DNA from: Alphaproteobacteria bacterium
Lineage (GTDB): Bacteria > Pseudomonadota > Alphaproteobacteria > Reyranellales > Reyranellaceae
Direction: 5' to 3'
DNA length: 64,000 nt
Assembly (NCBI GenBank): GCA_016870115.1
Contig: VGCH01000002.1
Location: 62,001-126,000 of the forward strand
The notes beneath the pieces are model-generated. The model was not told where the DNA came from. It worked only from the letters and a program-made list of their open reading frames with translations, and ran no database searches. Positions within the stretch are counted from its first letter, which is position 1. Each line of letters starts with the position of its first letter. A program made the translations under genes and the position numbers. Shown here one piece after another: positions 23,360 to 27,000 of this stretch.

Positions 23360-24931
23360 GTGGGCAAGGTCCGGAACGTTCTCTTCATCATGTGCGACCA
23401 GCTGCGCGCTGACCACCTGTCCTGCGCCGGCCATCCGCACCTCAGGACGCCGACCCTGGACGCCCTGGCGCGGCGCGGCGTGCGCTTTCCCCGCGCCTAC
23501 GTGCAGTCGGGCGTCTGTGGACCGAGCCGCATGAGCTACTACACCGGCCGCTACATGAGCAGCCACGGCGCCACCTGGAACCGCGTGCCGCTCAGCCTGC
23601 GCGAGAAGACCCTGGGCGATTTCCTCGGTCCCGCCGGCATCCGCGTGGCGCTGGCCGGCAAGACACACGTGCTGCCCGACACCGAGGCGCTGGAGCGTTT
23701 CGGCATCGAGGGCGGCTCGGCGCTGGCCGCACTGCTGCGCGCCGGCCGCTTCGAAGAGCTGGATCGCTACGACGGCCACTCGCCGCCGGGCGGCGAGAGC
23801 GGCTACGCCGATTACCTCCGCGCCAACGGCTACGCCGGTGAGGATCCCTGGAGCGAGCATGTGATCGCGGCCGACGGACCGGACGGCAAGACGCTGTCGG
23901 GCTGGCACATGCGCAACGTGCATCTGCCGGCGCGCGTGGCCGAGGAGCATTCCGAGACCGCCTACATGACGCGCGAGGCGATGGGCTTCATCGACGAGAT
24001 GGGCGAGCGCCCGTGGTGCCTACATCTCTCCTACGTGAAGCCGCATTGGCCCTACATGGCGCCCGCGCCCTATCACGCGATGTACCGCACCGCCCAGGCG
24101 CTGCCGCTGAACCGCAGCGACGCCGAGCGGATCGACGAGCATCCCGTGTTGGCGGCCTATCGCGCGCATGACGAGAGCGTGGCGTTCCAGCGGCCGGAAG
24201 CGCCGGGCCATGTGCGGCCGGTCTATATGGGCCTCATCCGCCAGATCGACGATTGGCTGGGTCGTCTGTTCGCGCACATGAAGAAGGCGGGCCGCCTCGA
24301 CGACACCCTGATCGTCTTCACCGCCGATCACGGCGACTTCCTCGGCGATCATTGGCTGGGCGAGAAGGAGATGTTCTACGAGGAGGCGATGCGCGTGCCC
24401 TTCATCGTGGCGGATCCCGACCCCGCCGCCGACGCCACGCGCGGCACGGTCGACGAGCGCTTCGTCGAGGCGGTCGATGTGGTGCCCACCATCCTCGAGG
24501 CGCTGGCGCAGAAGCCGCAGGATCACCTGGTCGAGGGCCGCTCGCTCCTGCCGCTGCTGCGCGGGTCCGCGCCGGCGACCTGGCGCGACCAGGTGGTGAG
24601 CGAACTCGACTATGCCTTCCGGGCCGCCCGCCAGACGCTCGGCCGTCCTCCCAGCGAGTGTCGCGCCACGATGGTCCGCACCGATCGCTGGAAGTATGTC
24701 CGCTGGCAGGGCTATCGGCCGATGCTGTTCGATCTTGCCAACGATCCGAAGGAGCTGCGCGATCTCGGCGCGCAAGCCGGCGGCAGCTACGCCCACATCG
24801 TGCGCGAGATGGAGGCGCGGCTGGGCGACTGGGCGCTCGGCCTCAAGAGCCGTGTCACCGTCGACGACGCCTATGTCGAGGCGCGCACCAACCGGCACCG
24901 CCAGCACGGCATCCATTTCGGCGTCTGGTGA
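23360..24931 (+). CDS. Sulfatase / phosphonate monoester hydrolase-like enzyme
   Basis: A 523-residue alkaline-phosphatase-superfamily hydrolase. VCGPSRMSYYTGR contains the C-x-P-S-R signal (C53) by which the cysteine is turned into formylglycine. Metal ligands are seen in MCDQLRAD and FTADHGDFLGDH. The overall sequence resembles the promiscuous rhizobial phosphonate monoesterase/arylsulfatases, including the APYHAMYR block. No signal peptide is present, so it acts in the cytoplasm. Starts at GTG after GGGGGAAAG. The true substrate (sulfate ester, phosphodiester or phosphonate) cannot be told. Confidence 0.85.
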   Translation: MGKVRNVLFIMCDQLRADHLSCAGHPHLRTPTLDALARRGVRFPRAYVQSGVCGPSRMSYYTGRYMSSHGATWNRVPLSLREKTLGDFLGPAGIRVALAGKTHVLPDTEALERFGIEGGSALAALLRAGRFEELDRYDGHSPPGGESGYADYLRANGYAGEDPWSEHVIAADGPDGKTLSGWHMRNVHLPARVAEEHSETAYMTREAMGFIDEMGERPWCLHLSYVKPHWPYMAPAPYHAMYRTAQALPLNRSDAERIDEHPVLAAYRAHDESVAFQRPEAPGHVRPVYMGLIRQIDDWLGRLFAHMKKAGRLDDTLIVFTADHGDFLGDHWLGEKEMFYEEAMRVPFIVADPDPAADATRGTVDERFVEAVDVVPTILEALAQKPQDHLVEGRSLLPLLRGSAPATWRDQVVSELDYAFRAARQTLGRPPSECRATMVRTDRWKYVRWQGYRPMLFDLANDPKELRDLGAQAGGSYAHIVREMEARLGDWALGLKSRVTVDDAYVEARTNRHRQHGIHFGVW

Positions 24932-25227: not shown

Positions 25228-25521
25228 TCAGCCGCGCGCGTCTGCGGCGGGCCGCGTCAACAGATAGAGGAGCGGTCCGAACGAGCCGCCGACCACGGTG
25301 AGTGCCAGCCAGGGCCAGGGGCTGCGCCTCCGGGCGCGGGCGTCGCGCCACATCCAGATCATGGCGAGCGTGCAGGCAATGACGAGATCTGCGAACACCT
25401 GCGCCGCGCCCCAGCTCTGGAAATGCGGCTCGATGATGCCCCAGTAGCCATGTCGCCACAGCGCGACAGCGCTCAAGGCGCTGAAAGCGAGCAGAACGAC
25501 GACCAGAACCGCGCGAGCCAT
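25228..25521 (-). CDS. DUF2834 small membrane protein
   Basis: A 97-residue protein with three hydrophobic helices. The block MIWMWRDARARR followed by PWPWLALTVVGGSFGPLLYL is the DUF2834 signature. Function unknown. It precedes no obvious partner; the MoaD-like gene lies 80 bp upstream on the same strand. Confidence 0.8.
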   Translation of the reverse strand: MARAVLVVVLLAFSALSAVALWRHGYWGIIEPHFQSWGAAQVFADLVIACTLAMIWMWRDARARRRSPWPWLALTVVGGSFGPLLYLLTRPAADARG

Positions 25522-25604: not shown

Positions 25605-25862
25605 TCAGCCGCCGCTCAGCGCTTGCACCAGTTGCACGCGGTCCGTCGCGCCGAGCGGATGGTTAACCGCGAAGACTTGCCGGCCATTCACGAAGAAGCG
25701 CATATGGGCCCGTAGCCGATCCTGCTCGTCGACGATGCGGAAGCGCAGGCCGGGAAAGCGCCGGTCGAGATCGCGCAACAGTCCATCGAGCGTCGCGCCC
25801 TCGGCGTCGACCTCGCGTCGCTTCGTGTAGGGGCGGAGCGGCGAGGGGATAAGCACCTTCAC
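25605..25862 (-). CDS. MoaD/ThiS-like beta-grasp protein
   Basis: An 85-residue ubiquitin-like sulfur-carrier-type protein. It has the beta-grasp pattern of hydrophobic strands, MRFFVNGRQV, and ends exactly in ALSGG, the di-glycine tail that E1-like enzymes adenylate and thiolate. No MoeB/ThiF, MoaE or thiazole gene is near. Instead it starts at a GTG that overlaps the stop of a beta-propeller gene by four bases (GTGA), so the two are translationally coupled. A role in molybdopterin synthesis is not supported by context. Confidence 0.82.
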   Translation of the reverse strand: MKVLIPSPLRPYTKRREVDAEGATLDGLLRDLDRRFPGLRFRIVDEQDRLRAHMRFFVNGRQVFAVNHPLGATDRVQLVQALSGG

Positions 25863-27000
25863 GTTGCGGCACTTTCGACGGCGTAGATCTCGGGCAAGTG
25901 GCGGGCAATGCAGCGCCAGCGAGCGCCATTCTCGCGCCCCATCCAGAGTTCCCCCGAAGTCATGCCGAGATAGAGACCGACCGGCGCGCCATCATCGACG
26001 CACATCGCCTGCCGCTTCACCGTCCACCAAGCTTGGCTCGTCGGCAGACCGTCGTCGTAACGTTGCCAGCGTCGCCCGCCGTCGCGCGTCCCGTAGACCG
26101 CCGGTCTGCCCTCCGGGCTGGTGCGTGGCCACACCGTGTCGGCATCCATCGGGAACACCCAGGCGCGATCGGCGTCGCGCGGATGCACCGCCATGTTGAA
26201 GCCGATATCGCCCACGCGCGCAGGCATCGACGTGCCGACGCGGCGCCAGCGCGTGGCGGGCCTGTCGAGGCGATAGATGCCGCAATGGTTCTGTTGCCAC
26301 AGCCGGTCGGGGTTCGAGGGCGCGAGCCGCACGCAATGGGGGTCATGGAAGGCGAGATTGGTTGCATCGAAGCCGTCCACGACCTCCATGCCGTCGCTCA
26401 ACGGCGTCCAGCTCGCGCCAGCGTCGCGCGACTCATGGACCCCGCCGCTCGACATGCCGAGATAGAGATGGTTGGCGTCTCTGGGGTCGACGATCACCGA
26501 ATGCAGTTTGGGCCCATCGGCGTGCCGTCCTGCTCGCCGCCGAACAGAGCCAGGATCGCTGGATTGTCGTTGAAGCCCGCGACGGGCGCCCAGCCCGCGC
26601 CGCCATCGTCGCTGCGGAACAGACCCTGTGGCGAGGTCCCGGCGTACCAGACGCCGGGCTGGCTCGGATGACCCGGCGTCAGCCAGAAGCTGTGGTCGAC
26701 GGCACGACCCATTTGGCTCGCCGCCGCGCGCGCGAAAGCCGGCGGCCGCGCGGCCTCTTTCCAACTGCGGCCAAAATCGGTCGAGCGGAAGATGGTGGGG
26801 CCGAGATGACCGGTCTTGGCCGCGACTAGCAGCGTGCGACGATCGCGCGGGTCCAGCACGGCGTGGCTCACGATATGGCCGAGATGGTGCGGACCCTTGA
26901 GGCGCCAGCTTCGCCGTCCGCTATTTGCCCACGCGAGCCAAAGGCCCTTGCGGGTCGAGATCAGGAGCATCGTCGAATCGCGGGCTGAGCGGCGAGACAT
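25859..27000 (-). pseudogene. Sialidase/YCF48-like beta-propeller protein, frameshifted
   Basis: Two overlapping frames together encode one ~380-residue protein of the exo-sialidase/BNR-repeat type. Asp-box-like repeats such as STDFGRSWKE, SDDGGAGWAP, SRDAGASWTP and TRDGGRRWQR mark the propeller blades. The first frame runs to about 26500 and the second takes over at GPKLHSVIVDP. The shift maps to a TTT run at 26507-26509 (AAA on the coding strand), where one missing base explains it. A sequencing slip, a real lesion or programmed slippage are possible. No signal peptide. It is coupled to the downstream MoaD-like gene. Confidence 0.75.

Follow-up and report, generated by a model that had tools for sequence, protein, structure and literature searches.

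Two genes on the reverse strand of the window, by which we mean the whole 64,000-nucleotide stretch of DNA that was analyzed, make up the locus described here. One encodes a small ubiquitin-like protein (UBL) and the other, lying upstream of it, encodes an Asp-box β-propeller whose reading frame is split. The features are as follows.

25605..25862, minus strand: UBL gene of the ThiS/MoaD family, 85 aa, GTG start, ALSGG end (ORF and Pfam)
25608..25622, minus strand: codons of the UBL's ALSGG tail, kept in relatives (translation and alignment)
25859..25862, minus strand: GTGA, overlap of the propeller stop and the UBL start
25859..26764, minus strand: downstream frame of the propeller gene, with homology to relatives starting near 26512
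26494..27000, minus strand: propeller gene, upstream frame (N-terminal part), with a stop soon after the frameshift
26506..26512, minus strand: point where the two frames meet; the heptamer C CCA AAC lies here, phased as a -1 slippery site would be

The translated UBL ends in ...QALSGG. Its match to PF02597 (ThiS) has an E-value of 2.8e-9 and scores 37.8 bits against a cut-off of 22.5, which places it in the ThiS/MoaD β-grasp family. The di-glycine-ending ubiquitin-like protein and the GTGA shared with a propeller gene, both proposed in the initial annotation, are thus present at the locus. Downstream of the pair lie a gene for a DUF2834 membrane protein (25228-25521) and one for a PehA-like phosphoric/sulfuric ester hydrolase (23360-24931), the latter scoring under the cut-off of its model.

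Each of the two propeller ORFs gives weak matches to BNR/Asp-box models, and by profile and homology they jointly match one protein of relatives. The ORFs are offset by -1, and the homology switches frame near 26506-26512. In all 58 relatives in which both propeller halves were matched the protein is encoded in a single frame, two of these (L027 and L042) being shortened in other ways, so the split is a feature of the window's assembly or strain. The heptamer C CCA AAC was found at the junction in none of the 34 relatives examined. A sequencing error or a young mutation is the favored cause of the split, and a slippage site is less likely. The BNR propeller of the initial annotation therefore stands as an Asp-box propeller gene upstream of the UBL, but not as one intact frame in the window.

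Occurrence and conservation of the gene pair

The initial annotation had called for a survey of how often UBL genes with a Gly-Gly end neighbor such propellers. A UBL scan of genome contigs gave 75 loci, and a propeller adjoins the UBL in 53 of them, counting copies that are whole or cut by a contig end. The 22 loci lacking a propeller are L020, 14 in L063-L076 and 7 in L078-L084; L020 carries a UBL of the pair type on a contig of only 4 kb. Among 61 near genomes the UBL was matched in nine, eight of which have the pair. A phylum sample of 349 genomes contains 95 with a match to the UBL profile and 25 with a propeller match at E<=1e-80, the next best genome reaching 1.4e-17. A UBL is adjacent to 17 of these 25 propellers, nine in propeller-UBL and eight in UBL-propeller order. 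The other eight, seven from a single family and one from a second, have no UBL nearby. The reading frames of the 75 UBL loci, scanned for the propeller, contained no natural propeller-UBL fusion.

The propeller also occurs in 15 plasmid or chromid records. Among the 12 that were analyzed, a UBL is adjacent in eight, including records from Cupriavidus metallidurans CH34, Burkholderia, Pseudomonas aeruginosa and Arthrobacter, and absent in four (Rhodobacter, Fuscovulum, Marivivens and Streptomyces). A phage collection contained no propeller match, and on this ground a phage origin of the propeller was rejected. The titles of pair-bearing records name Alpha-, Beta- and Gammaproteobacteria, Myxococcota, Planctomycetota, Acidobacteria, Nitrospira, Rokuibacteriota and one actinobacterial family; these records are mostly metagenome-assembled, and single titles may be mis-binned. 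The pair is therefore not confined to one genome, an outcome that the initial annotation had set as a refutation of its reading, and is present in many lineages.

The same annotation had set homologues without terminal glycines as a second refutation, and the Gly-Gly end proved to be strongly kept. Gly-Gly forms the exact end of 82 of 86 UBLs, made up of 59 of the 62 in an alignment that takes in the window UBL and the propeller-less L020, and 23 of 24 further partner UBLs. The end reads ALSGG in 57 of the 59. The remaining three aligned UBLs run past Gly-Gly by 2, 6 or 18 residues. The partner UBL of a Nonomuraea record (L140:3569-3880) stops before Gly-Gly and gives no Pfam match either. UBLs of the wider family that have no propeller end mostly in A(I/V/M)AGG.

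The two genes are closely spaced. At 57 measured loci they overlap in 27 (16 by 4 nt and 11 by 1 nt) and are separated by 0-15 nt in 21, by 16-60 nt in seven and by more in two. An all-against-all comparison of flanking ORFs revealed no constant third gene, and flanks were common only within two clades of pair loci, which identifies the propeller and the UBL as the unit. Pfam scans of the immediate neighbors returned mostly unrelated families or none, apart from the recurrence of ECF, YCII and VOC genes treated below.

A tree built from 57 propellers sets two groups on branches of their own, each with support of 100/100: 24 rows make up the main propeller-UBL group, and 12 rows the UBL-propeller group. 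A propeller family without UBL (10 rows, 100/100) stands beside UBL-bearing rows (97/91). The tree, which is rooted at its midpoint, fits an old association with later losses of the UBL and one switch in gene order. Pairwise distances between UBLs correlate with those between propellers. Over 78 pairs r is 0.935, against 0.268 for the best of 2000 permutations, and within the first group, group a (n=55), r is 0.717 against a best permutation of 0.176. Shared organismal ancestry inflates both values. The occurrence of the pair in many lineages and in two opposite orders indicates an association beyond chance. Unrelated genes that merely travel together could account for the propellers without UBL and for the UBL without propeller on the 4-kb contig L020. 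Such operon convenience is nevertheless very improbable, given the opposite orders in separate clades, the coupling by overlap and the recurrence across phyla. We conclude that this is a genuine pair of old standing and wide occurrence, and the UBL and propeller almost certainly act jointly.

In part of the family the neighbors of the pair recur. Profiles recognize the pair in 82 loci, a number that includes overlapping copies, and 56 of these have flanks of 2.5 kb at each end. In four genomes of separate lineages the pair is accompanied by genes for a sigma factor and YCII-type proteins, in differing gene orders. Loci with such neighbors are listed here.

L094:2759-6509: YCII, sigma factor (DUF6596), UBL and propeller on one strand, with a VOC gene on the opposite strand
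L109:2957-6419: VOC, propeller, UBL, YCII, sigma factor
L121:2082-5957: two YCII genes and a sigma factor gene, then propeller, UBL and SnoaL
Plasmid record from P. aeruginosa: YciI, VOC, a sigma factor, thioredoxin and a second YciI inside 7 kb

The sigma factor next to the pair at L094, L109, L121 and L150:3752-11144 is of the long ECF type (DUF6596), with YCII/VOC genes close by. The excerpts available of PMC8999054 and PMC6180224 describe a YCII gene adjoining a long ECF sigma factor as the context of the ECF42 group. For part of the family the arrangement may point to a regulon linked to stress, the ECF42-like assignment being one by gene context. The idea that the ECF42 targets of S. meliloti, as given in the excerpt of PMC6180224, are this pair gained no support, as no Sinorhizobium appears among the plasmid-record matches.

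Other surroundings were noted at single loci. At L101:3658-5520, L102:4606-6498 and L103:2616-4478 a UBL-like domain lies in a far longer frame whose end looks rhodanese-like by eye, possibly a natural fusion of carrier and sulfurtransferase. On a Myxococcales contig (L012:1503-3686) a gene of the molybdopterin-binding hydroxylase type lies immediately upstream of the pair, and a related ORF stands beside the propeller-less UBLs of Acidimicrobiia (L081-L084). The UBL-less propeller of Rhodobacter sp. CZR27 (L142) adjoins the ergothioneine genes egtB and egtD.

Fold of the propeller and its predicted contact with the UBL

An AlphaFold model of the propeller from a relative (L024) is a single propeller of 371 residues, with pLDDT 92.9 and pTM 0.92. 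Its closest structural match is 3B7F (60% identity, Z 58.3, rmsd 1.2 over 358 residues), and 3B7F in turn matches our A1 propeller profile at E 1.2e-199, so that both sequence and fold place the protein in the 3B7F Asp-box family. The 3B7F entry comes from Ralstonia eutropha and is titled a putative glycosyl hydrolase with BNR repeats. Like the propeller modeled here, it (Reut_B4987, YP_299179.1, strain JMP134) is a single 7-bladed Asp-box propeller. The portion of the Asp-box propeller survey available to us (PMC2716378) gives the 3B7F family as 7-bladed and functionally uncharacterized, assigns function to the top face of such propellers, and describes 3B7F solely as a fold with no mention of a partner UBL. 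YCF48/HCF136, with a structure of YCF48 bound to a D1 peptide (5ojp), and the Vps10 propeller of sortilin are related at 16% identity or less. To our knowledge, neither is a partner of a UBL.

Seven residues (L024 numbering), namely Lys9, His212, Gln227, His229, Arg283, Arg320 and Asp41, are identical in all 78 propellers compared, with or without a UBL. Asp41 is the sole invariant acid and comes directly after a strand in the L024 model. Judged by strand order in the model, the six other residues fall at turns and strand starts and would share one face. A basic set with no acid pair favors anion binding over glycoside hydrolysis. All six polar residues are kept in the eight UBL-less propellers of the phylum sample, which means that the pocket needs no UBL in cis.

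These features bear on the 'sialidase-like' propeller of the initial annotation, which has to be replaced by a single 7-bladed propeller of the 3B7F family. The annotated activity, a sialidase or other glycoside hydrolase beside which the UBL would be incidental, draws on the public labels 'exo-alpha-sialidase' and 'sialidase family protein' and on the GH74 propellers, which come next in the fold search with L024 at Z below 30. The L024 model matches 3B7F over its whole length, however, whereas sialidases have six blades and GH74 enzymes two 7-bladed propellers, according to the same portion of PMC2716378. The cut-offs of the Pfam BNR and NCBIfam glycosylhydrolase models were missed as well, and the invariant polar residues are Lys, His, Gln and Arg, with Asp41 as the only acid. 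The active site of GH33 sialidases consists of an Arg triad, a Tyr/Glu pair and an Asp. Compared with that site at the level of sequence, the propellers have two Arg residues, 283 and 320, that are invariant in all groups. A glycoside hydrolase was rejected on fold type and the missed cut-offs, and we consider this function highly improbable.

Contact between the two proteins was modeled with AlphaFold on a readthrough chain of L013, in which the two genes are in frame, from a 72-row alignment that included six joined rows. The model has a mean pLDDT of 89.4 and a pTM of 0.84; local values are 89-96 in the UBL blocks and 55 over the final five residues, and the linker is disordered. By a simple calculation, an unplaced UBL would give a pTM of 0.71-0.75, and reaching 0.84 needs a mean error of about 3-6 Å. 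The joined model is suggestive only, predicting a defined contact between UBL and propeller with a free tail, and the two proteins probably bind one another. A fold search with the joined model returned just propeller matches again. Sortilin provides a precedent for docking of a tail in a propeller pocket. Attractive as this mode is, it was rejected here, since the joined model leaves the tail disordered, its pLDDT of 55 meaning that no contact with the pocket is predicted, and since UBL-less propellers keep the pocket.

Docking of this kind is also what would be expected if the UBL were a non-covalent subunit or chaperone that is never charged, its Gly-Gly being a relic of the family or a contact. 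Precedent exists in TmoB of toluene monooxygenase (PMC1779556). The lack of an E1, E2, JAB or sulfurtransferase gene beside the pair is consistent with such a role, as are the L140 partner that stops short of Gly-Gly and the persistence of the propeller without a UBL. That 59 of 62 aligned and 23 of 24 further UBLs end exactly in Gly-Gly is, however, too strong a pattern for a relic, and with a disordered tail a pure contact role leaves the two glycines unexplained. An uncharged subunit is therefore rather unlikely, while being a rival to be taken seriously.

Kinship, proposed charging and proposed role of the UBL

No E1, MoaE, ThiG or JAB gene adjoins the pair. The initial annotation's 'no E1' is thus true of the neighborhood, but a ThiF/MoeB-family gene is encoded in trans in all 31 genomes searched, both with and without the UBL. 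The window's genome contains exactly one ThiF-family gene, on contig C2 at 230330-231043, outside the window and about 142 kb from the UBL; it is MoeB-like and has no rhodanese domain. A separate moaD-moaE pair is located on another contig of the same genome. A molybdopterin or thiamine role, which the initial annotation had already found unsupported, was rejected for the UBL on this basis. MoaE is not adjacent, and the window UBL gave no match to TIGR01682 at E<=1.

The best PDB matches of the UBL profile are 4n6e_B and 3dwg_C, which we take to be CysO and its homologue, bound to BexX and CysM. SAMP1 follows among the whole-domain matches. In sequence, then, the UBL appears nearest to carriers of the CysO/SAMP1 type. 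It shares the β-grasp family with SAMP1, TtuB and MoaD and stays under the SAMP1 and MoaD-family cut-offs, scoring 36.7 of the 60 bits of the SAMP1 equivalog model NF041918. The CysO-CysM and CysO-BexX systems likewise combine a small Gly-Gly carrier, a dedicated partner and an E1 acting in trans. They differ in that no Mec+ protease was seen here, and in that the tail is ALSGG rather than PAVAGG. The partners of CysO are a PLP enzyme or a ThiG-like barrel, unlike the propeller.

A SAMP-like system, in which a MoeB-charged UBL would be conjugated to propeller lysines or to those of other proteins, is suggested by the profile matches to SAMP1 chains, by the sub-threshold SAMP1 score and by the E1 in 31 of 31 genomes. 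It is a poor fit to the remaining data, because the SAMP1 cut-off was missed, no E2 or JAB lies at the pair, PADLOC returned no match (0 families for 4 proteins), and targets of the SAMP type would need no fixed propeller neighbor. Conjugation is accordingly judged quite unlikely. Membership in the known bacterial defense or E1-E2-Ubl conjugation systems was rejected on the PADLOC result and on the lone ThiF-family gene 142 kb away.

In mycobacteria, according to the available excerpt of PMC3227635, MoeZR charges CysO and also serves MoaD, and MoeBR does not charge CysO. Since CysO is charged in trans by an E1 that serves MoaD, the absence of a neighboring E1 is compatible with charging of the UBL. 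An E1 in trans does not prove such charging, and the MoeB found here, having no rhodanese domain, counts against it because CysO is charged just by MoeZR. Conserved operons with ThiS/MoaD genes outside cofactor synthesis have been described by Iyer et al. 2006 (PMC1779556). Those operons contain an E1 and often a JAB gene, unlike the pair, and the paper contains none of the words propeller, BNR and sialidase.

The reading we prefer is a two-protein system, apparently cytosolic as no signal peptide was seen by eye, in which the UBL is charged in trans by MoeB and serves the propeller. We regard this as close to an even call. The polar face of the propeller would bind or convert a small anionic substrate, and the UBL would be a dedicated partner that docks on the propeller. 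Its Gly-Gly end would be adenylated in trans by MoeB, the cell's sole E1, and the UBL would bring sulfur, most likely as a thiocarboxylate, to the propeller reaction, as CysO does for CysM. That the charged UBL carries sulfur to propeller chemistry is a fair suspicion whose chances fall somewhat short of even; the charging, the sulfur and the substrate are all deduced rather than observed. The strongest evidence against an obligatory carrier is the existence of UBL-less propellers with the same residues. The initial annotation's idea of a small undescribed carrier or scaffold pair survives as a recurring pair outside molybdopterin and thiamine synthesis, whose role may be sulfur transfer, conjugation or purely structural.

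In the literature searched, which held few subscription journals, no Ubl carrier was described as serving a propeller enzyme, and nothing relevant came up on MoaD or ThiS proteins together with propellers or sialidases, the one hit concerning Anoxybacillus genomes. We tentatively propose a new carrier-dependent β-propeller enzyme that receives sulfur or another group from its own MoeB-charged UBL and whose genes are linked in several lineages to ECF42-like/YCII stress clusters, a combination that is doubtful when taken as a whole. The pairing itself gives the orphan solved structure 3B7F a partner, and it makes the label 'exo-alpha-sialidase' beside 'MoaD/ThiS family protein' misleading. The presence of the pair in Cupriavidus metallidurans CH34 makes it directly testable. 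If the carrier role is true, a β-propeller would join the few enzymes that use protein-bound thiocarboxylates.
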